Of a DNA stretch of 64,000 bases, positions 47,060 to 63,413 are shown one piece after another. The notes beneath the pieces are model-generated. The model was not told where the DNA came from. It worked only from the letters and a program-made list of their open reading frames with translations, and did not search any database. The stretch is from Piscinibacter sp. XHJ-5. Its GTDB lineage: Bacteria > Pseudomonadota > Gammaproteobacteria > Burkholderiales > Burkholderiaceae_C. Numbering within the stretch: position 1 is the stretch's first letter; every line of letters starts with the position of its first letter. The stretch covers positions 6,324,001 to 6,388,000 of the forward strand of contig NZ_CP123228.1 in NCBI RefSeq assembly GCF_029855045.1, given 5' to 3'. The position numbers and the translations under genes are program-made.

Positions 47060-47949
47060 CGCCGGTTCACGAGCACGATCCCCGCAGCCACCGTCACCAG
47101 CGCCACGATCAGCCGAGTGGTGATCGGCTCGCCGAGCAGCAGGGCGCCCATCAGCAGGCCGAACACCGGCGTCAGCAGCGTGAAGGACGCGAGCCGCGTC
47201 GCCGGGTAGCGGCGCATCAGCCAGAACCACAGCAGGTAGCTGGCGAAGGTCACGACGACGACCTGAAACCCCAGCGACGACCACGCCAACACCGACAGCT
47301 CGCGCGGCAGCGGCGCGCCGGTGATGGCCGCCGCGAACGCCAGCATCACCGCCGACACCGCCAGCTGATAGAGCAGCGTCTTCTCCGCCGACGCGGCGGT
47401 GAGCCGGCTGGCCCGGATCGCCAGCGTCGTCGCGCCCCAGAGCACTCCCGCGGCGACGCCCAGGGCATCACCGACCCACTGGCGCTCGCCCGCGGCGGGC
47501 CGCGTGAAGCCCTCGGCGAACGCCCAGGCGACGCCCGCAAAGGCCGCGACGAGGCCAACAAGCTGCGATGCCGACAGCCGTTCCGAATGGGCGATGAAGG
47601 GCATGCCCAGCGCGACCACGAACGGCGACAGATAGATGAACACGACCATGCGGGAAGCGGTCGTGAACTGCAGGCCGATGAAGATGCAGCCGAACTCGGC
47701 GGCAAACAGCGCGCCGGCGAGCAGTCCGCCGCGCAGGGTTCCGTCGCGCTCGAACAGTCGGATGCCACGCGCCATCGCCCACAACCACACGAGCAATGCA
47801 CCGCCCGCCGAGCGGATGGCCGCCTGTTGCAGCGCCGGCACCTCGGGCAGCGCCGCCTTGGCCGCAACCTGGTTCAAGCCCCACAGGAAGCAGCAGCCGA
47901 CGAGCAGCGTGACGGCGAGCGAGTCGAGACGGGTCTTGCGTTCAGTCAT
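47056..47949 (-). CDS. EamA-family (DMT) transporter
   Basis: Inner-membrane transporter of 297 residues with about ten helices, made of two EamA repeats (about 10-140 and 160-292). Typical features are FLWGLNQVAAKAAL at the start and TPVFGLLMGALLLGEPIT near the end. Members export amino acids or other metabolites; the substrate is not known here. It overlaps the stop codon of the upstream rhombosortase-like gene by 4 bp and is probably cotranscribed with it. Confidence 0.88.
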   Translation of the reverse strand: MTERKTRLDSLAVTLLVGCCFLWGLNQVAAKAALPEVPALQQAAIRSAGGALLVWLWAMARGIRLFERDGTLRGGLLAGALFAAEFGCIFIGLQFTTASRMVVFIYLSPFVVALGMPFIAHSERLSASQLVGLVAAFAGVAWAFAEGFTRPAAGERQWVGDALGVAAGVLWGATTLAIRASRLTAASAEKTLLYQLAVSAVMLAFAAAITGAPLPRELSVLAWSSLGFQVVVVTFASYLLWFWLMRRYPATRLASFTLLTPVFGLLMGALLLGEPITTRLIVALVTVAAGIVLVNRR

Positions 47950-48530
47950 GGCCGGCGATGGTAGGGACATCGCGCAAAGCCCTCCGCGATCACCGCACAC
48001 AGCACGCCGCTGGCGAGCCCGCTTGCATGCGCCAACGGCGCAATCGCGATGTCCCACCCGGGCGGATGGCGCAGCGCGCCGGTCCATGGCGTCTCGCTCA
48101 GCACCTTGGCCAGCAGCACCCCAAGCATCACCGACCCGAGCAAGCGCCGCCCTCGCAGGGTCAGCAGATGCACCGCCACCACGGCGACGCCGGCGTGCAG
48201 CACGCCCGACAGTCCGCCATAGTGAAGCAGCTGCGGCTGCAGCACGAGCCCGAGCTGTGCGAGCGGCCAGGCCGCTGCCCACGCAAGCGCACCGCGCAGC
48301 GGCATGCGCGCCGCGTGACCCAGCGCACCGACCAGCACCCCGCCGGCCAGATTGGCGCCCAGATGCAGCAGGCTGTAGTGCACGAAGACGGCACTCAGCG
48401 CTCGCCACGGCTGAAGCCACGCGAGGGCCGGCTGCCAATCGATGACCTCGCGCGGAACGGACCAGCCGATCAGTGCACCGCTGCACAGCAGCGCGGCCAG
48501 GCCGGCCCAGACCCGCGATGGTTCAGCCAA
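47946..48530 (-). CDS. Rhombosortase-like intramembrane serine protease (rhomboid family)
   Basis: Rhomboid-fold protease of 194 residues with about six membrane helices. The catalytic serine is Ser108 in GGLSGVLHAG and the base is probably His168 in LAHASGLASG. The SGxLH pattern and short length match rhombosortases, which cleave C-terminal GlyGly-CTERM tails of exported proteins. A subtilisin-like protease with such a tail is encoded at 61509. The start is uncertain; TTG at 48530 is used because longer frames overlap glnE and carry no membrane segment. It is cotranscribed with the EamA gene and glnE. Confidence 0.72.
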   Translation of the reverse strand: MAEPSRVWAGLAALLCSGALIGWSVPREVIDWQPALAWLQPWRALSAVFVHYSLLHLGANLAGGVLVGALGHAARMPLRGALAWAAAWPLAQLGLVLQPQLLHYGGLSGVLHAGVAVVAVHLLTLRGRRLLGSVMLGVLLAKVLSETPWTGALRHPPGWDIAIAPLAHASGLASGVLCAVIAEGFARCPYHRRP

Positions 48531-51279
48531 ACACCGTCCGCCACAACGCCAGCACCGCATCACGGTGCGCGGCCAGTGTCTGCGGCGCGACCTGCGTGGG
48601 CTGCTCGTCCAGGCGCGCACGGTGCTGCGCTCGGCGCAGTTCGCGGTAGGCGTTTGCGGCCGCGACACCCATGCCCTGCGGCAGCAGGCCCCCTGCTTCG
48701 GCGCGCTGCAGCAGCGCGATGTTGCCGACGTTGTCGAGCAGCTCGCCGTGAATGGCGCTGTGCGCCAGCACCAGGTATTGCACCGCGAACTCGACGTCCA
48801 TCATGCCGCCGGCGCTGTGCTTGACGTCGAACAGGCCGTCCTTCACCGGATGGGCGGCCCTCACCTTTTCGCGCATCGCCTGCACCTCTTCGCGCAGCGA
48901 CTGCGCATCGCGCGGAGCGCTCAGAACGGTGCGGCGCACCGCCTCGAAGCGCGGCGCGATGTCGGTCCAGCCGGCGCAGAAGCGCGCCCGCGTGAGCGCC
49001 TGGTGTTCCCAGGTCCAGGCGGTGTTGCTGCCGCGGCCGGTCTGATAGCGCTCATAGCTCTGCATCGATGCGACCAGCAAGCCGGAATTCCCGTTGGGGC
49101 GCAGCGCGGTGTCGATGTCGAACAGCTCGCCCGCCGCCGTGCGCAGCGTGAGCCAGTTGATCAGCTTGCGCACGAAGGCGCCGTATACCTCCGGAGCACG
49201 CTCGTCCTCGTCGTCGTAGAGGAACACCACGTCGAGGTCACTGCCGTAGCCAAGCTCCTTGCCGCCCAGCTTGCCGTAGGCGATGACCGAGAAGCGGGGC
49301 TCTTCGCGATGACGCTGCTTGAAGTGCATCCACGACCAGCGCAGGGCGCACTCCAGCGTCGCATCGGCCAGCGCCGACAGGTCGTCGGCCACCTGTTCCA
49401 CCGTGATGTGACCCTCGACGTCGCGAACCAGCGTGCGGAACACCTCGGCGTGGTGGGCGCGGCGCAGGGTGTCGAGCAGCGATTCCTCGTCGGCCTGGCC
49501 CGAGCGCTCCCAGGCCTGGTGGCGTGCGTCCAGGTCGAAGATGTACTCGCCGCGGTCGAAGCGGCCGTGCAGCAGGCGCTCGTCGGCAAGCTCGTCGATG
49601 ACGCCCGGATGCAGCATCAGGTAGCGCATCGGCCAGCGCGCGAGGCCCAGCAGGCGCAGCAGCCGGTTCTCGACCTCGGGGCGCTCCACCAGCAGCGCGA
49701 GATAGCTTTCGCGGCGCAGCAGCGGTGCGAGCCAGTCGACGAAGCGGATCGCCGCATCCATCGTGCAGCGGGCTTCCTCCACCGCGTGCGCCGCGCGGGT
49801 GACGAGCTTGGCCAGGCGCAGCTTGCTCTCGTCGCGCAGCCCCTGGATGCGCGGCTGGGCGGCCCATTGCCGCACGCGATCGCGCAGTGCGGCCGGCAGG
49901 CGCTCGATGAACTCCTCGCTGTCCACCGGCTGCGGGATCTGCCCGCATTGGCGGCATCCGCCGTTCTTGCCGGGCGCCGGCGCCTGGCCGTCGTGCAACA
50001 GCGCATCGAATTCGGTGGCGACCACCTCGCGAGTCGTGCACAGGGTGTCGAGCAGCTCACACGCATCGGCATTGCAGACGAAGCCCATGCTGCGCGCAAT
50101 CCACTCGAGGTCGCCGTCGGTCGTCGGCAGCAGGTGGGTCTGCTGGTCGTCGAGGAACTGGATGCGATGCTCGACGCGGCGCAGGAAGGTGTAGGCCTCG
50201 GCCAGGCGGCGCGCGCTGTCGGGTTTCATCAGTCCGCCGGCGGCCAGCTTGTCGAGCGCCTTCAAGGTGGAGCGTGTGCGAATCTCGGGGAACTGCCCGC
50301 CGCGCACCACGAGCAGCAGCTGCACGATGAACTCGATCTCGCGGATGCCGCCACGCGACAGCTTCACGTCGTTGGCGCGCTCGGGCCGGCCCGCGGCGCG
50401 GCGCTGCGCCTCATCGCGCACCTTGCGATGCAGCTGGCGAAGTCCTTCGAAAACGCCGTAGTCGAGATAGCGCCGGTAGACGAAGGCCGTGACCGTGGAG
50501 CGCAACGCAAGCGCCCGGCCGTTGCGCACGCTGGCCAGCGGCGCGACGACGCGGCTCTTGAGCCACGCGAAGCGCTCCCACTCGCGGCCCTGCACCTGCA
50601 GGTACTCCTCGAGCATCGCGAGGCTGACCACCGGCGGGCCCGAGTTGCCGTTGGGACGCAGTGCCAGGTCGACACGGAACACGAAGCCGTCTTCGGTGGT
50701 CTCGCCGATCAGCGTGTACAGCCCGCGGGCAAGGTGCGAGAAGTACTCGTGCGCAGACATGCGCTGCGGCCCGGAGGTCTCGCCGTCCTCTTCGTAGACG
50801 TAGACCAGGTCGATGTCGGACGAGACGTTGAGCTCGCGCGCGCCGAGCTTGCCCATGCCGACGACCCAGAAGTCGATGTGCTGACCGCCTTCGGTGAGCG
50901 GTTCGCCGAAGCGCGCATCGAGCTCGCTGCGCGCCTGTGCAAGCGCGAGATCCAGCGTGGCCTCCGCCAGCTCGGTCATCGCGAGCGTGATGTCCTCCAT
51001 CGCCGCCCCCTGCTCGATGTCGAGGACGGCGAGGCGCTCGAGCACCAGCTGACGCGCTACTCGCAGGGCGCTGGCCAAAGGCCGTCCTGCCGACTGCAGG
51101 CGATCGACCAGCGCGACGACATCGTCGCGGCGCGGCAGGCCTGCCGGCAGCAGCGGAAGCTCCTGCGCATAGCGGCGGCGGATTCGTTGCACGAATCGGC
51201 TGTGATCGGCGCGCGCGTGGGGTGGCGGGGGCTGCAGCTCCGACGGATCGGCCAGCGGGATGTCAGGCAGGGAACCCAT
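48523..51279 (-). CDS. glnE: Bifunctional glutamine synthetase adenylyltransferase/deadenylase
   Basis: Enzyme of 918 residues that adenylylates and deadenylylates glutamine synthetase according to nitrogen status. Two nucleotidyltransferase domains are visible: GMGKLGARELNVSSDIDLV at 141-159 and a second GKLGGKELGYGSDLDVVFLY near residue 680. The helical region between and after them fits GlnE, and the length is close to the E. coli protein (946). The order of the active sites is deadenylylase first, adenylylase second. The downstream rhombosortase-like gene starts inside its last codons. Confidence 0.95.
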   Translation of the reverse strand: MGSLPDIPLADPSELQPPPPHARADHSRFVQRIRRRYAQELPLLPAGLPRRDDVVALVDRLQSAGRPLASALRVARQLVLERLAVLDIEQGAAMEDITLAMTELAEATLDLALAQARSELDARFGEPLTEGGQHIDFWVVGMGKLGARELNVSSDIDLVYVYEEDGETSGPQRMSAHEYFSHLARGLYTLIGETTEDGFVFRVDLALRPNGNSGPPVVSLAMLEEYLQVQGREWERFAWLKSRVVAPLASVRNGRALALRSTVTAFVYRRYLDYGVFEGLRQLHRKVRDEAQRRAAGRPERANDVKLSRGGIREIEFIVQLLLVVRGGQFPEIRTRSTLKALDKLAAGGLMKPDSARRLAEAYTFLRRVEHRIQFLDDQQTHLLPTTDGDLEWIARSMGFVCNADACELLDTLCTTREVVATEFDALLHDGQAPAPGKNGGCRQCGQIPQPVDSEEFIERLPAALRDRVRQWAAQPRIQGLRDESKLRLAKLVTRAAHAVEEARCTMDAAIRFVDWLAPLLRRESYLALLVERPEVENRLLRLLGLARWPMRYLMLHPGVIDELADERLLHGRFDRGEYIFDLDARHQAWERSGQADEESLLDTLRRAHHAEVFRTLVRDVEGHITVEQVADDLSALADATLECALRWSWMHFKQRHREEPRFSVIAYGKLGGKELGYGSDLDVVFLYDDEDERAPEVYGAFVRKLINWLTLRTAAGELFDIDTALRPNGNSGLLVASMQSYERYQTGRGSNTAWTWEHQALTRARFCAGWTDIAPRFEAVRRTVLSAPRDAQSLREEVQAMREKVRAAHPVKDGLFDVKHSAGGMMDVEFAVQYLVLAHSAIHGELLDNVGNIALLQRAEAGGLLPQGMGVAAANAYRELRRAQHRARLDEQPTQVAPQTLAAHRDAVLALWRTVFG

Positions 51280-51417
51280 GGCGGTCGCGGAGGTCTGTGC
51301 TAGATTGCCGCCGCGCCGGGAACTGACGGGGAATCAGATCCCCGGGGGAACCAGAACAAAACATTGCGGCATCGCACCGCACACTGTCTCGCCGATCTCC
51401 GGCTCCCCAACTCGTTC

Positions 51418-54400
51418 ATGTCCATTGTTGCGCCTGTCACTGCCGCTGCACCAGCGCCGCGCTCCCGACGCGCCCTGATGGCGGCGCGCTTGCGCTGGTT
51501 GGCGCGGGTGCTGGCGGGACTGGTCATCGCGGCGTGGAGCTTATTGCTTGTCGCCTGGCTGACACTGCACTGGGGGATTCTGCCGCACATCGACGACTGG
51601 CGACCGCAGATCGCGCAGCGGGCCAGCAAAGCGCTCGGGGTTCCGGTGCTTATTGGCAACATCAGCGTGCAGTCCAGCGGTTGGGCGCCGATGCTCGAGC
51701 TGCGCGATGTCGTGCTGCAGGATCCCCAGGCGCGACCCGCGCTCGCGCTGCCACGCATCGTGGCCACGCTGTCGCCGCGCTCGCTGTTCGCGCTGGAGCT
51801 GCGCTTCGAGCAGCTGCTGATCGAGGGCGCACACCTCGAGGTGCGGCGCGATGCGGCCGGCCGCATGTTCGTGGCAGGCCTCGACTTCAGCGGTCCGAGC
51901 AGCGGCGACGACCGCAGCGCCGCCAACTGGTTCTTCAAGCAGCCGGAGTTCGTGATCCGCGGCGGCTCACTGCGATGGACCGACGAGCAGAACAATGCGC
52001 CGCCGCTGGCCCTCACCGACGTGCAGCTCGTCGTGCGCAACGGACTGCGCCGCCACGACATGCGGCTCGACGCGACGCCGCCCGCCGACTGGGGCGACCG
52101 CTTCTCGCTGCAGGGCCGCTTCACGCGATCCCTGCTGGAGGAGGCGGGCGACTGGCGCCACTGGAGCGGCACCGTGCACGCCGAGCTGCCGCGCGCCGAT
52201 GTGCGCGAGCTGCGTCGGCACGTGAAGCTGCCGTTCGAGCTGAGCGAAGGCGACGGCGCCCTGCGCGCCTGGCTAGACGTGCGCGACGGACGGCCGCAGG
52301 GAGTCACCGTCGACCTCGCGCTGCGCGAAGTGGCGCTGCGCCTCGCCCCTGACGTGCAGCCGCTGTCGCTCGCGCAGATCGAGGGGCGGCTTGCGGCGCA
52401 GCGCAACGACGAGGGCTGGCAGCTGGCCGCACGCCAGTTCGGCTTCGTCACGGGCGAAGGCGTGCGCTGGCCGCGCGGCGATCTGGCGCTGTCATGGCGC
52501 CAGCGCGAAGGCCAAGCGCCCAACGGCGGCGACCTCAGCGCGCAGCGGCTCGACCTGGCGCTGATCGCCCAGGTGGCCGCCAGCGTGCCGCTCGGCGAAG
52601 CACTGCGCAAGCTGCTGGCCGAGCTGAGCCCGCAGGGCATCGTCAGCGATCTCGCGGCGAGCTGGAAAGGTCCGCTCGACAAGCCGGAAAGCTATTCGAT
52701 GAAGGGCCTGTTGAGCGGCCTGTCGCTCGCATCCAAGGCGTCGCCCGAACCGCACGCGGTCGGCCGCCCCGGACTGCGCAACGCGACGATCGCGCTGGCC
52801 GCCACCGACCGCGGGGGTGACGCCCGGCTCACCATCAGCGGCGGCGGCATCGAGCTGCCGGGTGTGTTCGAAGAGCCGCTGGTCGCGCTGGACCAGCTGA
52901 CGGCGTCGCTGCAATGGCGCGTGGAACCGGCAAGGCAGGCCGGTGTCCCGCCGCGCATCGCGCTGCAGGTCAAGGATGCGAAATTCGCCAATGCCGACGC
53001 GCAGGGGGAGCTCTCGGGCAGCTGGTCCACCGGCCCCGGCACCGGCGTGTCGCGAGGCGGCCGCTTTCCCGGGCAGCTCGAACTGACCGGCAAGCTTTCG
53101 CACGGCCAGGCGGCGCGTGTCGCCCGCTACCTGCCGATGGGCATTCCGCAGCACACGCGCTCGTACGTGGCGCGAGCGGTGCGCAGCGGCAGCGTCGAGA
53201 ACATGACCGTGCGCGTGAAGGGCGACCTGTGGGACTTCCCGTTCCATCGGCTGCGCAACCCGAAGGACGGCGAGTTCCGCATCGCCGGCATGGTCGACAA
53301 CGTCGAGTTCGCCTACGTGCCCGGCGCCCCGGCCAGCGGTGCGCAGCCCCCCCAGGAGTCGCCATGGCCGGCGTTCGGCAAGGTGCGCGGCGAGCTCGTC
53401 TTCGACCGCTCGTCGATGGAGATCCGCAACGCGCAGGCGCGGGTCTTCGGCGTCGAGCTCAACCGCGTCAACGGGGGCATCCGCACGCTTCACGAGAAGC
53501 CGGTCCTCGCCATCGAAGGCCAGGGCCGCGGACCCTTGGCCGACATGCTGCAGTACGTCAATGCCTCGCCGGTCGGCCGCTGGACGGGCAAGGCTCTGGC
53601 GCAGGCCACCGGCAGTGGCGTCGCCGACCTGCGGCTCGCCCTGTCGATTCCGCTCGTCGAGGTCTCGGCGTCCACGGTCAAGGGCAGCATTGCGCTGGCC
53701 GGCAACGACGTGCGCCTGACGCCGGAAACCCCGCTGCTGGGCTCGGCCCGGGCACGAGTCGCCTTCACCGAGAAGGGCTTCAGCGTTGCCGGCGGCGCGG
53801 CGCGAGTGCTCGGCGGCGATGCCACCTTCGACGGCGGCATGCAAAGCGACGGCAGCGTGCGCTTCACCGGCCAGGGCACCGCCACTGCCGACGCGTTGCG
53901 CCGCGCACCGGAAATCGGCCCGCTGTCGCGGCTGGCTGCTTCGCTGGGCGGCCAGGCGACGTATCGGCTGAACCTCGGCTTCGTTCGCGGCCACTCCGAG
54001 ATCACCGTGACGAGCAACCTCGTCGGGATGGCGTCGGACCTGCCGCCCCCCTTGCGCAAGACGGCCGACCAGCCGCTGCCGCTGCGCTACGGCAACAGCC
54101 TCGCCGCGGATTCGCTCGCGCCGGGTCAAACGCCGCGCGACACGCTGCGCCTGGAGCTCGGCAATGTGGTTGCGGCGCAGTACGTGCGCGAACTCTCCGG
54201 CGAGGCGCCGCGCGTGCTGCGCGGCGGCATCGGCGTGCTGGACGTGCTGCCCTCGCCCGCGGCCGGCGTGGCGGTGCAGCTCAATGTGGCGAGCCTCGAC
54301 GTCGACGCCTGGGAGACCATCGCCAACCGCGTCTTCGCCACCCCTGCGGCCGCCGGTCCCGCACCGGCCGCTGCCGGCGGGGCGGCGTCCGCCAGCTCAG

Positions 54401-55575
54401 GCGGTTATGCGCCCACCTCCGTGGCCCTGCGGGCCCAGGAAGTCATCACCGGCGGGCGCCGGCTCAGCAAGGTCGTGGCGGGGATCTCCCAGGAAGACGG
54501 CTTGTGGCGCGCCAACCTGGACGCCGAACAGCTCAACGGCTACGTCGAATACCGGCCGCCGCGCCGGCCGGGCGGCGGCGGGGCGGGCCGCGTCTACGCG
54601 CGCCTGTCGCGGCTGTCGCTGCCCAAGAGCGACGCCGAAGGCGTGGAGAACCTGCTCGACCAGCAGCCGTCGGCGGTGCCGGCACTGGACGTCGTCGTCG
54701 ACGACCTGGAGCTGCGAGGCAAGCGGCTCGGCAAGGTCGAGATCGAAGCGGTGAACCGCTTCAGCGGCGAAGGCCGCGACGCGGTGCGCGAATGGCGACT
54801 CAACCGGCTCGCGATGACGGTGCCGGAAGCTCGCTTCACGGCCAGCGGCATCTGGTCGCCGGCCGGCGCGGCAGCGGGTTCGCGCCGGCGTGCGCAGCTG
54901 AACTTCCGGCTGGACCTGACGGACAGCGGCGCGCTGCTCGAGCGGCTGGGCACCGGCCGCGCCATCCGCGGCGGCAAGGGCAACCTGTCCGGCCAGGTCG
55001 CCTGGCTCGGGTCGCCGCTCGCGCTCGACTATCCCAGCCTCACCGGCCAGGTCAACGTGGCGATCGATGCGGGCCAGTTCCTGAAGGCCGAGCCCGGTGC
55101 GGCCCGGCTGCTCAGCGTGCTCAGCCTGCAGTCGCTGCCGCGGCGGCTCGCGCTGGACTTCCGCGACCTGTTCCAGGAAGGCTTCGCCTTCGACGCCGTC
55201 ACCGGCGATGTCAGCATCCAGCAGGGCGTGGCGCGCACCAACAACCTGCGCATGCGCGGCGTGCAGGCTGCCGTGCTGATGGAAGGCAGCGCCGACCTCG
55301 AGCGCGAGACGCAGGACCTGCGCGTGATCGTGGTGCCGGAGATCAACGCCGGCACCGCCTCGCTGGCCTATGCTGCCATCAACCCGGCGATCGGCCTGGG
55401 CACCTTCCTTGCGCAGGTGTTCCTGCGCAAGCCGCTCACCCAGGCCGGCACGCGCGAGTTCCACGTCACCGGCCCGTGGAGCGACCCCAAGGTGGAGCGG
55501 GTCGAGCGCAAGTTCGGAGACCGCGCGGCCGATGTCGATGCAGCATCGTCGTCAGGCGACAACGCAAAGAGGTGA
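51418..55575 (+). CDS. yhdP: YhdP-family AsmA-like protein
   Basis: Very large protein of 1385 residues with one N-terminal membrane helix (about 28-50) and a long periplasmic part of beta-rich repeats. YhdP belongs to the AsmA-like bridge proteins thought to carry phospholipids to the outer membrane. The start PHIDDWRPQIAQRASKALGVPVLIGNI and the C-terminal TASLAYAAINPAIGLGTFLAQVFLRKPL are diagnostic. Start ATG at 51418; a TTG at 51364 in the same frame is less likely. It is divergent from glnE, and 2 bp separate it from the nitrilase gene. Confidence 0.93.
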   Translation: MSIVAPVTAAAPAPRSRRALMAARLRWLARVLAGLVIAAWSLLLVAWLTLHWGILPHIDDWRPQIAQRASKALGVPVLIGNISVQSSGWAPMLELRDVVLQDPQARPALALPRIVATLSPRSLFALELRFEQLLIEGAHLEVRRDAAGRMFVAGLDFSGPSSGDDRSAANWFFKQPEFVIRGGSLRWTDEQNNAPPLALTDVQLVVRNGLRRHDMRLDATPPADWGDRFSLQGRFTRSLLEEAGDWRHWSGTVHAELPRADVRELRRHVKLPFELSEGDGALRAWLDVRDGRPQGVTVDLALREVALRLAPDVQPLSLAQIEGRLAAQRNDEGWQLAARQFGFVTGEGVRWPRGDLALSWRQREGQAPNGGDLSAQRLDLALIAQVAASVPLGEALRKLLAELSPQGIVSDLAASWKGPLDKPESYSMKGLLSGLSLASKASPEPHAVGRPGLRNATIALAATDRGGDARLTISGGGIELPGVFEEPLVALDQLTASLQWRVEPARQAGVPPRIALQVKDAKFANADAQGELSGSWSTGPGTGVSRGGRFPGQLELTGKLSHGQAARVARYLPMGIPQHTRSYVARAVRSGSVENMTVRVKGDLWDFPFHRLRNPKDGEFRIAGMVDNVEFAYVPGAPASGAQPPQESPWPAFGKVRGELVFDRSSMEIRNAQARVFGVELNRVNGGIRTLHEKPVLAIEGQGRGPLADMLQYVNASPVGRWTGKALAQATGSGVADLRLALSIPLVEVSASTVKGSIALAGNDVRLTPETPLLGSARARVAFTEKGFSVAGGAARVLGGDATFDGGMQSDGSVRFTGQGTATADALRRAPEIGPLSRLAASLGGQATYRLNLGFVRGHSEITVTSNLVGMASDLPPPLRKTADQPLPLRYGNSLAADSLAPGQTPRDTLRLELGNVVAAQYVRELSGEAPRVLRGGIGVLDVLPSPAAGVAVQLNVASLDVDAWETIANRVFATPAAAGPAPAAAGGAASASSGGYAPTSVALRAQEVITGGRRLSKVVAGISQEDGLWRANLDAEQLNGYVEYRPPRRPGGGGAGRVYARLSRLSLPKSDAEGVENLLDQQPSAVPALDVVVDDLELRGKRLGKVEIEAVNRFSGEGRDAVREWRLNRLAMTVPEARFTASGIWSPAGAAAGSRRRAQLNFRLDLTDSGALLERLGTGRAIRGGKGNLSGQVAWLGSPLALDYPSLTGQVNVAIDAGQFLKAEPGAARLLSVLSLQSLPRRLALDFRDLFQEGFAFDAVTGDVSIQQGVARTNNLRMRGVQAAVLMEGSADLERETQDLRVIVVPEINAGTASLAYAAINPAIGLGTFLAQVFLRKPLTQAGTREFHVTGPWSDPKVERVERKFGDRAADVDAASSSGDNAKR

Positions 55576-55577
55576 GG

Positions 55578-56405
55578 ATGGGCAAGTTGAAGATCGCCGC
55601 GCTGCAGACCGTCTCCACGCCGGATGTCGAGCGCAACCTGGCGGTGGCGCGACGGCTCGCCGCCCAGGCGGCCGGCGAGGGTGCACAGCTCGCCGTGCTG
55701 CCCGAGTATTTCTGCTTCATGGGGCCGAATGACCGCGACAAGCTGACGATCGCCGAAGCGCCCGGCGACGGTCCCATCCAGCAGGCGCTCAGCGACATCG
55801 CACGACAGCATCGCCTTTGGCTCATCGGCGGCACGGTGCCGATCCGCGTCGCGGGCAACGCCGAGTTCGTGCTCAATGCCAGCTGTGTCTTCGGGCCGGA
55901 CGGCCGCCAGACGGCGCGCTACGACAAGATGCACCTGTTCCGCTACGACAACGGGCGCGAGTGCTACGACGAGGGGAAGGTGCTTCAGGCGGGCGATACG
56001 CCGGTGGCCTTCGACGCGGACGGATGGCGCGTCGGCTGCAGCATCTGCTACGACTTGCGGTTTCCCGAGCTGTACCGCGCACTGAGCCTCGCGCCGGGCG
56101 AGCCGCCATGCGATCTGATCGCGGTGCCGGCCGCCTTCACCTTCACGACGGGACGCGCGCACTGGGAGGTGCTGCTGCGCGCAAGGGCGATCGAGAACCA
56201 GTGCTATGTGATCGCCGCCGCGCAAGGCGGCAAGCACGAGACGGGTCGCCGCACCTGGGGCCACAGCATGATCATCGACCCCTGGGGCGAACCGCTTGGC
56301 GTCCTGCCCGAAGGCGAGGGCATGGTGATGGCGGAGATGGATGCCTCGCGCATCGAATCGGTACGCACGCAGCTTCCGGCGCTGGAGCACCGGCGCTGCT
56401 TCTGA
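55578..56405 (+). CDS. Carbon-nitrogen hydrolase (Nit1-type deaminated glutathione amidase)
   Basis: Nitrilase-superfamily amidase of 275 residues. The catalytic triad is Glu43 in LPEYF, the Lys in YDKMHLF and the Cys in GCSICYDLRFPELYR. The Nit1 subgroup removes the amide of deaminated glutathione, a repair function. The motif FTFTTGRAHWEVLLRARAIENQCYV is conserved. It is cotranscribed with yhdP, a common pairing in betaproteobacteria. Confidence 0.9.
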   Translation: MGKLKIAALQTVSTPDVERNLAVARRLAAQAAGEGAQLAVLPEYFCFMGPNDRDKLTIAEAPGDGPIQQALSDIARQHRLWLIGGTVPIRVAGNAEFVLNASCVFGPDGRQTARYDKMHLFRYDNGRECYDEGKVLQAGDTPVAFDADGWRVGCSICYDLRFPELYRALSLAPGEPPCDLIAVPAAFTFTTGRAHWEVLLRARAIENQCYVIAAAQGGKHETGRRTWGHSMIIDPWGEPLGVLPEGEGMVMAEMDASRIESVRTQLPALEHRRCF

Positions 56406-56426
56406 TCCGACGCCCGCGCTGGAGCG

Positions 56427-56615
56427 TCAGCTGCCGGAGCGCACGAGCCGGGTCGGCGTGTTGACCCAGATCACCTTGACGCCGGTCGCGAGAGCGGCGC
56501 GCTCGATGGCGGCGACCCTTTCGTGATCGGTTTCGGTACGCGGCGACGTCGTCGGGGCCGCGGCGCAGCCGACGAGACCCACACCGACCAGCAGGCACAG
56601 GATGAGGCGCTTCAT
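56427..56615 (-). CDS. Small lipoprotein
   Basis: Lipoprotein of 62 residues. The signal peptide MKRLILCLLVGVGLVGC ends in a lipobox with Cys17, followed by AAAPTTSPRTETDHERVA and a short helical and strand region. No family is recognised. CAGGAGCTGACATG gives a good ribosome-binding site. It stands between the convergent nitrilase gene and topB; a 104-bp gap separates it from the topB stop. The role is unknown. Confidence 0.65.
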   Translation of the reverse strand: MKRLILCLLVGVGLVGCAAAPTTSPRTETDHERVAAIERAALATGVKVIWVNTPTRLVRSGS

Positions 56616-56719
56616 GTCAGCTCCTGAAAGCGTGACGGGGCGTTTCTCAATTTACGCCTGGGCCTCGGGACCGTCAACGCAACTTTGCTCGTGAACCCGT
56701 CGCTCCTGCGCCCTTTTCC

Positions 56720-59317
56720 TCAGCCCTTGGCACCGACCTTCTTCGCCGCCGCCTTCTTCGCGGGCGCCTTGGCTGCGCGAGGCTCGAATTCGAAGGTGAC
56801 CTTGCCTTCCTTCTTGTCGTAGGCCAGGCGCGCCTTGAACTTGCGGCGTGTCTTGTTGGAGACGAAGTTCTCGAGCAGGTCGGTCTTGCCCTCGGCCAGC
56901 AGCTTGCTCATCTGCTCACGCGCGACCGGCTGCTGCAGGATGATCTTGCCGCTCTTGAAGTCGCACGTCACATGAGCGCCGACGCTGTGCTCGCAGACGT
57001 AGGACGCGCCATGCTCGTAGACATGGCCGCGGCATTTGGGGCAGCTGCCGAGGCTTTCCTGCCCGCTGAAGTCGACCGGCTCCCCGGACTCGCCTTCGCG
57101 CTTGGCCTCCTCGCCGAAGTCGAACTCGAGCTTCCAGTTGCCGATCTCTTCGTCGTAGGCCAGCTTGAGCTCGGCGGTGAACGGCCAGCCCGCCTTGGAG
57201 CGAAAGCCTTCCAGCGGGCCGATCTTCTTGGTCGAGAGAAAGGTCTCGACCTCGTCCAGCTCGAAGCTGCGGCCGCCGGGAATCTTGCTGATCGAGAAAC
57301 CGCAGCCCTCGCCATCGGCAGACTTGCCGGTACAGGTGAAGCGCCGATAGTTTTCCTTCACCACGCCGCCGCATTGCGGGCACGGCGTCTTCAAGGTGGC
57401 GTAGTCGCCGGGAATGGTGTCGCGGTCGTATTCCTTCGCCTTGGCCACGATGCGCTCGGTCATCGCGGCGATCTCGTCCATGAACTTCTGGCGGCTGAGC
57501 TTGCCCTTTTCCATCTCGGCGAGCTGGTACTCCCAGTTGCCGGTCAGCTCGGGCTTGGTCAGCTCCTCGACCTGCAGGCCGCGCAGCAGCGTCATCAGCT
57601 GGAACGCCTTGGCGGTGGGGATCAGCTCGCGTCCCTCGCGGTGCATGTACTTCTCCATCAGCAGGCCTTCGATGATGGCCGCGCGCGTCGCCGGCGTGCC
57701 CAGGCCTTTCTCCTGCATCGCTTCGCGCAGCTCGTCGTCGTCGATCAGCTTGCCGGCGCCTTCCATCGCGGACAGCAGCGTCGCCTCGGTGTAGCGCGCC
57801 GGCGGCTTGGTCTTCAGCGCATTGACGTCGACATGCTCGGTGCGCACCAGCTCGCCGGGCTTCACGGGGACGAGGTTGGCATCGTCCTCCTGCGCCTCCC
57901 GCCCGTACACGGCCAGCCAGCCGGGCTTGACCATCACCTTGCCGTTGGTCTGGAAGCTGTGGCTGGCGTCGCCGGCCTTCACGGTGGAGATGCGCGTGGT
58001 GACCATGAACTCGGCCGGCGGGAAGAACACCGCGAGGAAGCGCTTGACGACCATGTCGTACAGCTTGGCCTCGATCTCGGACAGGCTGCCCGGCGCCTGC
58101 AGGGTCGGGATGATTGCGAAGTGGTCCGACACCTTGGCGTTGTCGAAGATGCGCTTGTTGGGCTTGACGTAGCCCTCGTCGATCGCCTTGCGGGCATGCG
58201 CGTTCAGCGTCCGCAGCGGGCCGGGCAGGTCCTCCTCGGACAGCATCTGCATCGTCTTCTTGACCACGCTGACATAGTCCTCGGGCAAATGCTTGCTGTC
58301 GGTCCGCGGGTAGGTGAGCACCTTGTGCTTCTCGTACAGCGCCTGTGCGATCGACAGCGTGGTCTTGGCCGAAAAGCCGAAGCGTGAATTGGCTTCGCGC
58401 TGCAGAGTGGTCAGGTCGTACAGCCCGGGAGCGCTCTGCGTGCTGGGCTTGGCCTCCTCGGTGACGCTGGCGGGCTGGCCGCGCACGGCCTGCGCGATGG
58501 CCTGGGCATCGGCCTCGGTCCAGACGCGGTCGGCGCGCAGCTCGAGGTCTTCGGGATTCTTTTTCCACTTGGGGTCGAACCACTTGCCGTCGTACTGGCC
58601 GGCCTCGGCGTCGAAGGTGGCCTTGATCTCCCAGTAGTCGCGCGCCACGTGCTTGCGGATCTTCTCCTCGCGCTCGACCACGATGGACAGCGTGGGGGTC
58701 TGCACGCGGCCCACGGTCGTGAGGAAGAAGCCGCCGTCGCGGGAGTTGAAGGCGGTCATCGCACGCGTGCCGTTGATGCCCACCAGCCAATCGGCCTCGC
58801 TGCGGCTGCGCGCCGCATCGGACAGGCCCAGCAGCTCCTCGTTGCTGCGCAGTTGCTCGAAGCCGTCGCGAATGGCCTGCGGCGTCATGCTCTGCAGCCA
58901 GAGGCGGCGGATCGGCTTGGCGTGTCCCTTCTTGTCGACGCCGGCGTACTGCACGATGAGGCGGAAGATGAGCTCGCCCTCGCGGCCCGCGTCGCAGGCG
59001 TTGATGAGCTCGGTCACGTCCTTGCGCTTGACCAGCTTGACCACGGCATTGAGCCGCGTCTTGGCCTTGTCGATCGGCGCCAGGTCGAAGTGCGGCGGGA
59101 TCACCGGCAGATGCGCGAAGCTCCACTTGCCGCGCTTGACGTCGTATTCCTCCGGAGCCTTGATCTCGACCAGATGACCCACCGCCGACGTGACGATGTA
59201 GCGCTCGCTCTCGAAGTACTCCGCGTGTTTCTCGAACTTGCCGACGCTGGGTGTCAGCGCGCGCACGATATCGGCGGCGACGGACGGCTTCTCGGCGATG
59301 ACTAAGGTTTTGCTCAT
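56720..59317 (-). CDS. topB: DNA topoisomerase III with extended zinc-ribbon C-terminus
   Basis: Type IA topoisomerase of 865 residues. The TOPRIM domain opens the protein (MSKTLVIAEKPSVAADIVRAL) with EGELIFRLI further on. The catalytic tyrosine is in LTYPRTDSKHLPED. E. coli TopB has 653 residues; the extra part here includes two metal-binding-like modules (CPQCGG to CTGKSADGEGCGF and CPKCRGHVYEHGASYVC) plus C-terminal topoisomerase-associated repeats and a lysine-alanine-rich tail (KAPAKKAAAKK). It removes single-strand links such as precatenanes. Divergent from the SET-domain gene. Confidence 0.93.
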   Translation of the reverse strand: MSKTLVIAEKPSVAADIVRALTPSVGKFEKHAEYFESERYIVTSAVGHLVEIKAPEEYDVKRGKWSFAHLPVIPPHFDLAPIDKAKTRLNAVVKLVKRKDVTELINACDAGREGELIFRLIVQYAGVDKKGHAKPIRRLWLQSMTPQAIRDGFEQLRSNEELLGLSDAARSRSEADWLVGINGTRAMTAFNSRDGGFFLTTVGRVQTPTLSIVVEREEKIRKHVARDYWEIKATFDAEAGQYDGKWFDPKWKKNPEDLELRADRVWTEADAQAIAQAVRGQPASVTEEAKPSTQSAPGLYDLTTLQREANSRFGFSAKTTLSIAQALYEKHKVLTYPRTDSKHLPEDYVSVVKKTMQMLSEEDLPGPLRTLNAHARKAIDEGYVKPNKRIFDNAKVSDHFAIIPTLQAPGSLSEIEAKLYDMVVKRFLAVFFPPAEFMVTTRISTVKAGDASHSFQTNGKVMVKPGWLAVYGREAQEDDANLVPVKPGELVRTEHVDVNALKTKPPARYTEATLLSAMEGAGKLIDDDELREAMQEKGLGTPATRAAIIEGLLMEKYMHREGRELIPTAKAFQLMTLLRGLQVEELTKPELTGNWEYQLAEMEKGKLSRQKFMDEIAAMTERIVAKAKEYDRDTIPGDYATLKTPCPQCGGVVKENYRRFTCTGKSADGEGCGFSISKIPGGRSFELDEVETFLSTKKIGPLEGFRSKAGWPFTAELKLAYDEEIGNWKLEFDFGEEAKREGESGEPVDFSGQESLGSCPKCRGHVYEHGASYVCEHSVGAHVTCDFKSGKIILQQPVAREQMSKLLAEGKTDLLENFVSNKTRRKFKARLAYDKKEGKVTFEFEPRAAKAPAKKAAAKKVGAKG

Positions 59318-59432
59318 GTGTCTTTCTGCGACCGGCCGCAGCGGCTGGCGCGCGGCTCAATACAATTCGGGCTTCTCGCGCGCATGCACGTACGCGCGCG
59401 CGCCCACAAATTCAATGTACCCAAACAAGTCG

Positions 59433-59924
59433 ATGACGCAAGCGATGGCGACCAAGCCCCCCCTGACCCCTGCTGCCAATGGCCGCCGCATCCAGGTCCG
59501 CCGCTCGGGCGTGCACGGCAAGGGCGTGTTCGCGGTGGCCCCCATCCCGAAGGGCGAGGTGATCATCGAATACAAGGGCGAGGTCATCAGCTGGCCGGAG
59601 GCGCAGCGGCGCCATCCGCACGACCCGGCCGATCCGAACCACACCTTCTACTTCCACATCGACGACACGCGGGTCATCGATGCGAAGTACGGCGGCAATG
59701 CGGCGCGCTGGATCAACCACGCCTGCCAGCCCAACTGCGAGGCGGACGAAGTCGACGGCCGCATCTTCATCAAGTCGCTGCGCTCGCTCAAGCCGGGCGA
59801 GGAACTCTTCTACGACTATGGGCTCATCATCGACGAGCGCTACACGCCCAAGCTGAAGAAGCAATACGAATGCCGCTGCGGCTCCCGCAAGTGCCGCGGC
59901 ACCATGCTGGCCCCGAAACGGTGA
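59433..59924 (+). CDS. SET-domain protein (putative protein-lysine methyltransferase)
   Basis: Protein of 163 residues covering almost only a SET domain. SGVHGKGVFAVAPIPKGEVIIEYKGEVI, RWINHACQPNCEA (SAM-binding) and GEELFYDYGLI (catalytic Tyr) are all present, and CRCGSRKCRGTML matches the zinc-binding post-SET region. SET proteins methylate lysines with SAM; the bacterial target is unknown. Start: ATG at 59433 is chosen, with 59415 (MYPNKS) as alternative. It lies 6 bp before birA and may be cotranscribed. Confidence 0.87.
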   Translation: MTQAMATKPPLTPAANGRRIQVRRSGVHGKGVFAVAPIPKGEVIIEYKGEVISWPEAQRRHPHDPADPNHTFYFHIDDTRVIDAKYGGNAARWINHACQPNCEADEVDGRIFIKSLRSLKPGEELFYDYGLIIDERYTPKLKKQYECRCGSRKCRGTMLAPKR

Positions 59925-59930
59925 CCGCCG

Positions 59931-60845
59931 ATGCCTGACCGCCCGCTGCGCTGGGGCGCAGAAGCCCTCTGGGAACAGCTGACGCCTCAGCTTCCGGGGC
60001 TCAGCGTCGAGGTGGTCGCGCGTATTTCGTCCACCAATTCGGCGCTGCTGGAGCGGGCGCGCATCGTCACCCCGGCGGCCACCGACGAGGGCGACCTTGC
60101 CCAGGTGCGGCGCAGCGTCGAGAGCACCGCCTTCGGCCGCCGCGCCGCCGATCTGCAGCCCTGCCTGCTGGTGGCCGAGCACCAGACGCACGGGCGCGGC
60201 CGGCAGGGCCGGCTGTGGCAGGCGTCGCCGGGCGCGTCGCTCACCTTCTCGCTGGCACTGCCGCTGGCCCCGCTGGACTGGTCGGGCCTGTCGCTGGCCG
60301 TCGGCGTGGCGCTCGCCGATGCGCTCGACCCGCCACCGTCCGGACCCGACGGCCATCGGCCGCGGCTGATGGTGAAGTGGCCCAACGACCTGTGGCTGAT
60401 GGACGCCGAGACCGGCCGCAAGCTCGGCGGGATCCTCATCGAAACCGTGGCCGCCGGATCGCGGCGGCTGGCGGTCGTCGGCATCGGCATCAACGTGCTG
60501 CCGATGTCGCCCGGCGACGCCGCCACGGGCTTCGCCTGCGTGCAGGAGATCGACCCCGACGCGACCGCGCCGCAGGTGCTCGCCCGCGTCGCCAAGCCGC
60601 TGGTCGAAGGCCTGCGGCGCTTCGAGCGCGAAGGCTTCGGCGACTTCGCCGACGCCTTCGCCCGGCGCGACCTGCTGCGCGGCCGGCGCGTGCGCACCAC
60701 CCACTCCGACGTACCCGAAGGCTGCGCTGAAGGAGTGTCCGCCGATGGCTCGCTGCTCGTGCGCACGCCCGACGGCGAGCTGCGCACGGTCAGCAGCGGC
60801 GAGGTCAGCGTGCGGCTCCAGCCGGGCGGCGAGGCGCCATGCTGA
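59931..60845 (+). CDS. birA: Biotin-[acetyl-CoA-carboxylase] ligase
   Basis: Ligase of 304 residues that attaches biotin to acetyl-CoA carboxylase. HGRGRQGRLWQASPGASLTFSLAL is the biotinyl-adenylate site, KWPNDLWLMD and KLGGILIET follow. A C-terminal small domain ends with VRLQPGGEAPC. There is no N-terminal winged helix of the E. coli repressor type, so it is a monofunctional enzyme. A short insertion of about 25 residues lies near residue 45-70. It overlaps the SPOR-domain gene by 7 bp. The coaX gene often found after birA is not present. Confidence 0.93.
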   Translation: MPDRPLRWGAEALWEQLTPQLPGLSVEVVARISSTNSALLERARIVTPAATDEGDLAQVRRSVESTAFGRRAADLQPCLLVAEHQTHGRGRQGRLWQASPGASLTFSLALPLAPLDWSGLSLAVGVALADALDPPPSGPDGHRPRLMVKWPNDLWLMDAETGRKLGGILIETVAAGSRRLAVVGIGINVLPMSPGDAATGFACVQEIDPDATAPQVLARVAKPLVEGLRRFEREGFGDFADAFARRDLLRGRRVRTTHSDVPEGCAEGVSADGSLLVRTPDGELRTVSSGEVSVRLQPGGEAPC

Positions 60846-61504
60846 GAGGTCTGGCGGCGCTGCTGCTGCTGGCCAACCTGGCCTTCTTCGCGTGGACCCA
60901 GGGCTGGCTGGACAACGTCGTCGGCGTGCGCGCAGCCGGCGATCGCGAGCCCGAGCGATTGCAGCGGCAGGTGAATCCCGAGGTCGTGCGCATCCTCACG
61001 CCGCAGGCGGTGGCTGCCGCCGCCAGCGCCGCCGAGCTGCGCCTCGCCTGCCTGGAGGCCGGCCCGTTCGACGCCGGCACGATAGGCGCCGCGGAAACCG
61101 CGCTGTCGGCCACGCTGCCCAGCGGCACCTGGGCCCGCGTGACCACCGAGCGGCCGACCGCCTGGATCGTCTACATGGGCCGCTTCGCGAATCGCGAGGC
61201 GCTGCAGCGCAAGCAGCAGGAACTGGATCGCATCCGCATCAGCGTCGAGGAGGTCCGCAACGCGCCCGACCTCGAGCCCGGGCTGTCGCTGGGCCGCTTC
61301 GCGCAGCGCGCCGACGCGGAGACCGCGCTGGCCGACATGGCGCGGCGCGGCGTGCAGACCGCGCGCGTGGTCGAGATGTGGCGGTCGGCGACGCTGCACA
61401 TGCTGCGTGTGCAGCGAGCCGACCCGGAACTCGCCGCGCGCGTGATGGGGCTGCGCCTCGACGCGCTGGGCAAGGGCTTCGGGCCCTGCGCGCGGAGCTC
61501 CTAG
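60839..61504 (+). CDS. SPOR-domain protein with N-terminal membrane helix
   Basis: Protein of 221 residues. The N-terminus is one membrane helix (about 2-21, LRGLAALLLLANLAFFAWTQG). The C-terminal half has a SPOR-like fold: WIVYMGRFANREALQRKQQEL (about 109-129), SLGRFAQRADAETALADMARRGV and a final strand. SPOR domains bind denuded peptidoglycan strands at division sites. In Burkholderiales such a gene often follows birA (with or without coaX), so the context supports the call. It ends 4 bp from the convergent S8 protease stop. Confidence 0.8.
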   Translation: MLRGLAALLLLANLAFFAWTQGWLDNVVGVRAAGDREPERLQRQVNPEVVRILTPQAVAAAASAAELRLACLEAGPFDAGTIGAAETALSATLPSGTWARVTTERPTAWIVYMGRFANREALQRKQQELDRIRISVEEVRNAPDLEPGLSLGRFAQRADAETALADMARRGVQTARVVEMWRSATLHMLRVQRADPELAARVMGLRLDALGKGFGPCARSS

Positions 61505-61508
61505 CCGG

Positions 61509-63413
61509 CTAGACGCGGGTCGCCTGGCGGCCGACGCGCAGCCAGGCGATGGCCAGAGCCAGTGCGACGAGCCACGAGAGGTCGACCGCCCCGCCGCCGC
61601 CACCGCCGCTCTGTGCAGGCGCAGCCGTCACGACAACGCTCGACGAGCTCGTGGCCGAGCCGCCGCCGCTGTCGGTCACCGTCAGGGACACGACGACCGT
61701 GCCCGGCGCCGTGCCGCGCAGCGTCGCGGTGTCGCCGGCCGCCGATTCGATGACGGCCGAGGTGTCGCCGCTCGTGATGGCCCATTGGTATTGCACGATC
61801 GCACGGCCCGCGCTGGCTTCGGACCCCGCCGCGCTCAAGGTCACGGCCTGACCCGAGGCGACGCTGGCCGAGGCCGGATTCAGGACCGCCGTCGGAAGAT
61901 TGGCGGCCACGACGGCGCCGGCCGCGTCCAGCATGCCGGCGCCGCAGGTGGTACTCGTGCAGTGGCATTCGATCTGGTCGTTGCCGTCGGGCGCGTGGCA
62001 CACCGGAACCGAGGGGTTGGTCGAACTGGCTGGGAACGGCCGCGCCGTTCGCACCAGGGCGTTGCGGATCTGCGTCGGCGTCATTGCCGGATTCGCCGAG
62101 AGCATCAACGCCGCGGTGCCCGCCACGAGCGGCGCCGAGAAGCTCGTGCCGACGGAGAACTCGAAGCTGTCGGTGTAGGTGTTGGTCGCCGGCCCGGTGG
62201 CACCGGTGTTGACGGTCGTCACCAGCATGTTGAGGCAGGCGCCCGTCTCGTTGACGCAGTTGCCGCCCGGGGCGCTGAGCGCCACTTGGGGTCCGACGCT
62301 GGAGAAGCCGACCTTGGTGCCGATGTGTCGCACCGCGCCCACGGCGATCGCACCGCTGCAGTTGGCCGGGGCATCCACGGCCGCGCCCGAGTCGTTGCCC
62401 GCCGACACGACGACCGTCACGCCCGCCGCGTTGAGCTGGTTGATCACGCTCTGATAGCTGGCGGGACAGGCGCCGGGCGAGCCGAGGCTCAGGTTGAGGA
62501 TCTGTGCCGGATGCGGGTTGGCCACCGGGTTGCTCGACAGGCCGGCGGCCCACAGCATCGCGGCCTGGATGTCCGAGTCGAAGCCGCCGCATTTGCCCAG
62601 CACGCGCACCGGCAGCACCATCACGTTGTAGCCGACCGACGCCATGCCGATGCCGTTGTTGGTCGCCGCGCCGATCAGGCCAGCCACTTGCGTGCCATGC
62701 CACGAGCTGGAGCCCACCGCGTCGCTGCAATCCGCGAAATCGGGATCGCTGTTCACCTCGGCCTGCGTGACCCAATCCCCCGGATCCGAGGGATCGCCGT
62801 CGCGGCCGGTGCCGTCGTTGGCCGTCTTGACGTCGTTGATGAAGTCATAGCCGGGATGAAGCTTGCCGGCGAGGTCGGGATGATCGAAGCGCACGCCGGT
62901 GTCGAGCACCGCGACCGTCACGCTGCTCGAGCCGGTGGTCGTGTTCCACGCGGTCTCGGCATTGATCGCCGACACGTTGGTCGAGGTGGGCGGCCGCAGG
63001 TACCACTGGCCCACCGTGGGCGTCGTTCCCGAGGGCTGATTGCCCGGGTAGAGCGGATCGTTGGGGACCGCGCGGGCAAACCGGCGACGGTCGGGCTCGG
63101 CGAATTCCACCTCGCTGTCCGCGGCGAGCCGCGCCGCCAGGGCGCGCGAGCTGAGGCCCCGCGCAAACACCACCTGCGCGCGCTCGCCGATGGCGTGGCC
63201 ATCGGTCAGCGCGACTCCAAGACGCTGCGACAGCGCGGCGGCCTGCCCGCGCAGCGGCGATCCGGCCTTGTACTTCACGATCACGCGGGCCATGTCGCCG
63301 CGGTCGGATGCTGCGTCGTCGTAGCGCTTGGCAGCCTGGGCGTGAGGCGCGTGCAGCGTCATCGGCGCGAGCAGCGCACACAGCATGGCCAGGGTCAGCA
63401 GGGGATGGCGCAT
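61509..63413 (-). CDS. Subtilisin-like S8 protease with a GlyGly-CTERM sorting tail
   Basis: Secreted protease of 634 residues. A signal peptide (about 1-28), an I9-like propeptide (about 40-112), then the catalytic domain with Asp171 in AVLDTGV, His239 in SSWHGTQVAGL and Ser424 in SVGTSFSAPLVAG. A PKD-like beta domain follows (about 520-600). The last 33 residues are a run of glycines, a hydrophobic helix (LSWLVALALAIAWL) and basic residues: the GlyGly-CTERM pattern cut by rhombosortase. A rhombosortase-like gene is at 47946. GGAGG precedes the ATG. It is expected to be processed and released from the cell. Confidence 0.9.
   Translation of the reverse strand: MRHPLLTLAMLCALLAPMTLHAPHAQAAKRYDDAASDRGDMARVIVKYKAGSPLRGQAAALSQRLGVALTDGHAIGERAQVVFARGLSSRALAARLAADSEVEFAEPDRRRFARAVPNDPLYPGNQPSGTTPTVGQWYLRPPTSTNVSAINAETAWNTTTGSSSVTVAVLDTGVRFDHPDLAGKLHPGYDFINDVKTANDGTGRDGDPSDPGDWVTQAEVNSDPDFADCSDAVGSSSWHGTQVAGLIGAATNNGIGMASVGYNVMVLPVRVLGKCGGFDSDIQAAMLWAAGLSSNPVANPHPAQILNLSLGSPGACPASYQSVINQLNAAGVTVVVSAGNDSGAAVDAPANCSGAIAVGAVRHIGTKVGFSSVGPQVALSAPGGNCVNETGACLNMLVTTVNTGATGPATNTYTDSFEFSVGTSFSAPLVAGTAALMLSANPAMTPTQIRNALVRTARPFPASSTNPSVPVCHAPDGNDQIECHCTSTTCGAGMLDAAGAVVAANLPTAVLNPASASVASGQAVTLSAAGSEASAGRAIVQYQWAITSGDTSAVIESAAGDTATLRGTAPGTVVVSLTVTDSGGGSATSSSSVVVTAAPAQSGGGGGGAVDLSWLVALALAIAWLRVGRQATRV

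Follow-up and report, generated by a model that had tools for sequence, protein, structure and literature searches.

A rhombosortase and an S8 protease with a GlyGly-CTERM-type tail as a probable sorting pair in Piscinibacter sp. XHJ-5

The two genes at the locus

Piscinibacter sp. XHJ-5 is a soil-type bacterium with a genome of one contig (6.65 Mb). A stretch of 64,000 nucleotides from it (positions 6324001-6388000), referred to here as the window, carries a gene for a predicted rhombosortase, a rhomboid intramembrane serine protease, and a gene for a secreted S8 (subtilisin-like) protease that ends in a putative GlyGly-CTERM sorting tail. Both proteins have their named relatives in Burkholderiales (Piscinibacter, Albitalea, Rhizobacter, Aquabacterium and others). 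An earlier, sequence-only reading of this DNA had proposed that the two proteins are a likely functional pair, and our survey of related genomes leads us to regard such a pairing as very likely, since the two genes co-occur across 120 genomes and are direct neighbours in four of them. The features that carry the argument are the following, in window coordinates.

47946..48530, minus strand: predicted rhombosortase, 194 residues, TTG start (TIGR03902, PF01694, signature residues, AlphaFold2 fold)
48393..48407, minus strand: WRALS, the loop L1 motif WRxxS/T, residues 42-46 (motif from PMC3237569)
48195..48209, minus strand: SGVLH, with catalytic Ser108 and the rhombosortase-specific His112 (from the alignment; SGMLH with its His is diagnostic according to PMC3237569)
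48006..48032, minus strand: AHASGLASG, with catalytic His168 and the GxxxG of transmembrane helix 6 (from the alignment and motif reading)
61509..63413, minus strand: S8 secreted protease with C-terminal sorting tail, 634 residues (PF00082, 180.9 bits)
63330..63413, minus strand: signal peptide, placed by eye from the translation, cleavage near AQAA
62031..62927, minus strand: S8 catalytic domain, triad presumably Asp171, His239, Ser424
61629..61865, minus strand: PKD (immunoglobulin-like) domain (PF22352, 42.9 bits, cut-off 27)
61512..61610, minus strand: putative GlyGly-CTERM-type tail, SGGGGGGAVDLSWLVALALAIAWLRVGRQATRV, the sole confident genome match to our tail profiles and pattern, kept in homologues

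The rhombosortase

Two motifs have been described for rhombosortases, WRxxS/T in loop L1 and SGMLH, the His of which is diagnostic (PMC3237569). The protein at 47946-48530 contains WRALS, GLSGVLH (SGxLH, with His where GlpG has Tyr205) and AHASGLASG (AHxxGxxxG), and Ser108, His112 and the other signature residues are invariant in a 42-row alignment. Its AlphaFold2 model has the rhomboid fold, with six helices and without an N-terminal cytoplasmic domain. PF01694 (Pfam Rhomboid) matches above its cut-off (28.9 against 22.6 bits), and TIGR03902 gives 80.7 bits with an E-value of 1e-22 (81.6 bits in the genome search), its cut-off being 84; the same-genus orthologue, which also lies beside glnE, reaches 91.6 bits and is over that cut-off. 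The two other rhomboids of this genome reach 40 and 31.7 bits with TIGR03902 and have the motifs GASGAIL and GASGGIY. The motifs, the fold and the orthologue bear out the proposal of a rhombosortase-like six-helix rhomboid, and we assign the predicted protein to the rhombosortase family in substance, though the TIGR03902 threshold is narrowly missed.

The S8 protease and its tail

By eye, the S8 protein opens with a signal peptide, which is followed by a propeptide-like region, Peptidase_S8, PKD and the tail. The residues of its presumed catalytic triad, Asp171, His239 and Ser424, assigned by motif and conservation, are invariant in a 21-row alignment (A3). The C-terminus reads SGGGGGG-AVDLSWLVALALAIAWL-RVGRQATRV, that is, a Gly-rich motif without Cys, a helix and a basic cluster; the glycine run, helix and basic residues noted from the sequence at 61509 are thus present, and they are kept in homologues. 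A like tail was found in all 9 Burkholderiales S8 loci that have at least 52% identity and a covered C-terminus (L013 ends at a contig end, and L014-L016, L018 and L019 stand outside this count), while L017, at 34% identity, has no tail. Among the 120 best listed homologues, 114 fit a rule asking for the three parts of the tail and 96 have the strict motif; the rule errs in six cases, passing the tailless P0144 and P0165 and failing the tailed P0224, P0227, P0229 and P0234. One further S8 relative, with 61% identity over query residues 166-613, comes from L010, a metagenome-assembled genome titled Bordetella parapertussis, a bin that may be mislabelled.

Short tail models were then compared on alignment A4, which holds 34 of the 38 non-redundant tails drawn from 115 of these homologues. 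At E-values up to 0.023, approximately the cut-off, TIGR03501 (GlyGly-CTERM) matches 7 of the 34, MYXO-CTERM (TIGR03901) 7, TIGR03867 2 and IPTL-CTERM 1, and one orthologue tail passes TIGR03501 outright (15.7 against 15.5 bits). The authors of TIGR03501 state that the model cannot detect true examples exhaustively, and their curation logic promotes low-scoring tails when homology runs through trusted examples (PMC3237569). Because that logic can be applied to homologous tails that reach TIGR03501, we classify the window tail, by its sequence, as a GlyGly-CTERM variant. An existing variant model, TIGR03867, derives from the Ralstonia lineage (PMC5300114). We considered MYXO-CTERM as an identity for the window tail and rejected it: the invariant Cys is absent and the best score is 10.7 bits against a cut-off of 20. 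A Leu four residues after the Trp is nearly invariant among the tails and may, by analogy, stand for Leu390, which VesB of Vibrio cholerae needs (PMC11389362).

Co-occurrence across genomes

The family survey covered 120 genomes from 119 genera, searched with a rhombosortase profile (A2), TIGR03902, an S8 profile (A3) and the tail profile (A4); C-termini that A4 did not catch were read from stretches of genome sequence. TIGR03902 matches above its cut-off in 46 of the 120. At E-values up to 1e-15, A2 overlooked divergent rhombosortases that TIGR03902 detected, and the rhombosortase set of 61 genomes combines 54 found by A2 with G032, G039, G040, G047, G051, G063 and G083 found by TIGR03902. 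G037 (44 bits with TIGR03902) enters via A2 alone; G009, G099 and G109 (48-51 bits; motif GASGAVF in G109) and G071 and G022 (SGVLY) were excluded. The tailed-S8 set of 57 genomes consists of 61 matches to A3 at E-values up to 1e-60 minus G027, G048 and G103, the C-termini of which were read and have no tail, and G112, where the frame was not traced to its end. The tailed genomes include G116 and G104, though their S8 and tail sit on separate contigs, as well as G017, G104 and G100 on tail E-values of 0.001-0.012. At the same survey level the window's genome has one S8 match. Two neighbouring S8 proteases occur in G091, G119, G107, G005 and G118, where both have a tail match, and in G075, where one does.

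Both genes are present in 53 genomes and neither in 55, with 8 holding the rhombosortase only (G015, G039, G040, G079, G083, G090, G094, G102) and 4 the tailed S8 only (G022, G043, G104, G109). Fisher's exact test gives p = 1.7e-20 for this co-occurrence, a value that ignores shared ancestry. Five of the exceptions are in incomplete genomes (G040, 74%; G083, 85%; G102, 65%; G043, 80%; G104, 76%). Both G090, with a tail match beside birA on contig C30 in a 93-residue frame, and G094, where birA sits at a contig end, were kept among the rhombosortase-only genomes. G022 carries a TIGR03902 protein of the SGxLY kind, and G109, G039 and G079 stand as plain exceptions. In G015 the rhombosortase adjoining glnE (C1:277543-278130; L105, L086) reads GLAGAVH, with Ala for the catalytic Ser, which has the look of a decayed system; no tailed S8 was found in that genome, and we count this case in favour of the pairing.

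Readings of the active-site motif cover 47 of the 61 rhombosortases; the other 14 (including G039, G040 and G083) entered the set by score. The catalytic Ser is present in 46 of the 47 (all except G015), the His four residues past it likewise in 46 (G082 has Met), and the full SGxxH in 42. In three the Gly after the Ser is replaced: G084 (L136) has GLSSVLH, G035 (L101) GLSALIH and G037 (L110) GLSATLH. The motif of G082 (L096) is GMSGLLM. Some rhomboids with SGVLY, and so with Tyr for the diagnostic His, score over the TIGR03902 cut-off, namely G071:C11:738575-739027 (L117) at 139.3 bits and G069:C121:30085-30537 (L118) at 120.7 bits; another, G022:C2:886577-887092 (L107, L113), reaches 109.7 bits summed over two stretches. 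G069 has a second TIGR03902 match, of 82.9 bits, on C11, and the rhombosortase match of G118 contains one TGA.

Gene neighbourhood

The rhombosortase and S8 genes lie 13 kb apart in the window, and their immediate neighbours are as follows.

48523..51279, minus strand: glnE, upstream neighbour of the rhombosortase (PF03710); its 3' end shares 8 bases with the start of the rhombosortase gene
47056..47970, minus strand: EamA-family transporter on the downstream side; its reading frame overlaps the 3' end of the rhombosortase gene, with candidate ATG starts at 47970 or 47949
59931..60845, plus strand: birA, encoding biotin protein ligase; by synteny it usually adjoins the S8 gene
60839-61504: SPOR-domain gene, after birA

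In 48 of the 61 rhombosortase genomes the gene lies no more than 4 kb from glnE, and the S8 gene lies within 6 kb of birA in 39 of the 51 checked among the 57 tailed-S8 genomes. Between the two genes of the window stands a topoisomerase-type gene (56720-59317, 865 residues), as it does in the same-genus genome; it did not turn up in the sequence read from more distant relatives, which in some of them falls short of the whole interval.

That both genes lie in one window had been taken as a sign of pairing, and selection on gene linkage would account for it: 33 of the 53 genomes with both have them on the same contig, 28 of these within 80 kb. A control with the flanking genes tells against this. 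Where glnE and birA share a contig, at most 80 kb separates them in 26 of 31 genomes that have a rhombosortase and in 18 of 25 that lack one, and since they are about equally close without it, the loose linkage is mostly inherited synteny, which suffices for the 13 kb of the window. We therefore rejected linkage as evidence of pairing and regard selection on linkage as a very improbable reason for the shared window. In G032, G047, G051 and G063, by contrast with the synteny account, the two genes are immediate neighbours, their profile matches being 122-139 bp apart, and G032 has the order glnE, rhombosortase, S8. This adjacency argues for more than synteny in those genomes and is in line with a published rule by which a single target tends to adjoin its rhombosortase (PMC3237569).

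Number of substrates

With profile A1, profile A4 and a DNA pattern alike, the S8 gene is the single confident match in the genome, and the reversed pattern gives 0. These scans scored 150 of 310 candidates with A1 and 66 of 104 with A4, and among the candidates scored no second confident tail was found; a genome search for tails with TIGR03501 gave none. We treated the weaker matches as chance (with A1, E 0.616, in a 42-residue frame, and E 9.6; with A4, E 0.031, in a 207-residue frame at C1:5086083). One substrate has thus been found, not proven to be the sole one. Published genomes with a rhombosortase have 1 to 13 GlyGly-CTERM proteins (PMC3237569), and because one-target genomes are among them, the lack of another confident tail, which the sequence-only reading had held might count against the pairing, does not refute it.

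Mechanism and alternatives

We propose that the two genes encode a dedicated one-enzyme, one-substrate rhombosortase/GlyGly-CTERM pair of Burkholderiales, in which the tail is cut, the product is probably lipidated, and the type II secretion system (T2SS) carries it to the surface, and we put the probability of this reading at about 0.84. The S8 protease would be exported by Sec, and its tail would keep it in the inner membrane, with the Gly run outside, the helix in the membrane and the basic residues inside. The rhombosortase, with a Ser108/His168 dyad and His112 replacing the usual Tyr or Phe, would cut at or near the glycine/alanine junction; the exposed C-terminus would probably be passed to a phosphoethanolamine lipid, and the T2SS would then carry the protease to the cell surface, where it might be anchored or partly shed. 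The genome has a T2SS secretin GspD (full-length match, 600.6 bits, cut-off 351). The cut and the later steps are modelled on VesB of V. cholerae. There, RssP cleaves the SGGS motif within the membrane, at Gly383 (PMC6219818, PMC11389362, PMC13393428); the cut precedes T2SS export, a moiety that contains glycerophosphoethanolamine is added to the exposed glycine, and the protein then remains for the most part at the surface (PMC6219818). The suggestion that the tail anchors the protease until release at the surface does not agree with this order of events. The immunoglobulin fold of VesB acts as a secretion signal (PMC13393428), and the PKD domain of the S8 protease might by analogy do the same.

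Several observations weigh against this proposal. The rhombosortase of this genome falls 3.3 bits short of the curated TIGR03902 cut-off, so that the family-model match expected of it came out as a near-miss, with a strong E-value, rather than a hit; TIGR03902 also gives weak matches in 14 of 14 control genomes at E-values up to 0.001 and in 3 of 14 at up to 1e-11, none over the cut-off. TIGR03501 gives no match to the window tail at E-values up to 10 (cut-off 15.5 bits), and MYXO-CTERM matches as many of the 34 homologous tails as TIGR03501 and outscores it on several; such cross-matches indicate that short tail models separate poorly. Some exceptions to co-occurrence fall in fairly complete genomes, with the tailed S8 only in G022 (99%) and G109 (92%) and the rhombosortase only in G015, G039, G079 and G094 (99-100%) and G090 (98%). 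Finally, the window tail (61512-61610) is without SGGS and has Gly and then Ala, residues that VesB positions 381 and 384 do not tolerate: in the saturation table of PMC11389362, which scores protease activity, the entries for Gly in place of Ser381 and for Gly or Ala in place of Ser384 are given as '>1' %, a value that we take to mean about no activity. This conflict implies a shift either in the cut site or in the specificity of the enzyme. A coevolved one-substrate sub-specificity of Burkholderiales, in which enzyme and tail have shifted from SGGS to a glycine-run/alanine junction with membrane entry through A-[LMV]-xxx-W-L, is a tentative possibility; if so, V. cholerae RssP would process the tail poorly, and enzyme and tail would not be interchangeable between lineages.

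Two other accounts of the tail bear on the proposal. It might be a plain C-terminal membrane anchor, or be cut by other GlpG-like rhomboids while the rhombosortase acts on an unrecognised substrate, as one could suppose in a genome that reaches neither the TIGR03902 nor the TIGR03501 cut-off and has two further rhomboids; the GlpG of V. cholerae cleaves VesB within the loop ahead of the tail (PMC11389362), evident only without RssP (PMC13393428). Rhomboids of other kinds are common, however, as the weak matches in every control genome illustrate, so that co-occurrence in 53 of 120 genomes and four adjacencies would go unexplained, and the lack of a second confident tail among the candidates scored also speaks against an unrecognised substrate; we consider this account improbable. 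It is rather unlikely, too, that the rhombosortase simply hydrolyses the tail and frees a soluble S8 protease without lipid transfer. Haft and Varghese discussed release and cited an agarase that its Vibrio host secretes and E. coli retains (PMC3237569), but an adduct of 197 Da, which would fit glycerophosphoethanolamine, is present on VesB, and extracting the protein takes detergent (PMC6219818); moreover, GlyGly-CTERM with RssP is enough for membrane association (PMC13393428). VesC does end mainly in the supernatant, but through autoproteolysis in its linker (PMC13393428). A dedicated pair, with cutting of the tail and probable lipidation, remains our preferred explanation.

The pair documents the rhombosortase/GlyGly-CTERM system in a large and little-studied group, apparently in one-to-one form. 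The general public tail model mostly misses these tails, so that genomes of this kind are probably under-annotated. With a single substrate, such a pair also offers a clean setting for studying how a rhomboid recognises its target and the possible lipid transfer of the product, and the control with glnE and birA illustrates that two such genes can lie 13 kb apart through inherited synteny and nothing more.

Comparison with known systems

The pair adds one more member to a sorting system that is already known and does not define a new kind. Like the TIGR03902 rhombosortases SO_2504 of Shewanella and RssP of V. cholerae, which act with TIGR03501 tails, the enzyme is a six-helix rhomboid with WRxxS, SGxLH and AHxxGxxxG, and as in those systems the putative substrate is a secreted hydrolase with a signal peptide, here placed by eye, and a tripartite tail, in a genome with a T2SS secretin. 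It differs from them in its sub-threshold score (80.7 against 84 bits), in having no Ser inside the glycine motif, in the lack of a TIGR03501 match and in the single substrate found. With TIGR03867 it shares a protease tail of GlyGly-CTERM form, by the name of that model, and 2 of 34 homologous tails match it, the window tail being unlisted at E-values up to 10. For the catalytic domain, the subtilases 7w2a, 5yl7 and AprV2 (3lpa) are among the closest solved structures by sequence profile, with crystal chains of approximately 340-360 residues.

Leptothrix cholodnii and Methylibium petroleiphilum belong to the same part of Burkholderiales as the host. Strains SP-6 and PM1 of these species, respectively, have one GlyGly-CTERM protein each and a rhombosortase listed as distant (PMC3237569), a likeness by count. 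VesB is made up of signal peptide, propeptide, protease, immunoglobulin fold, linker and GlyGly-CTERM (PMC13393428), an architecture that the S8 protein parallels, the PKD domain being its immunoglobulin-like part; VesB differs in being trypsin-like and in its SGGS motif, where the Piscinibacter protein is an S8 protease.

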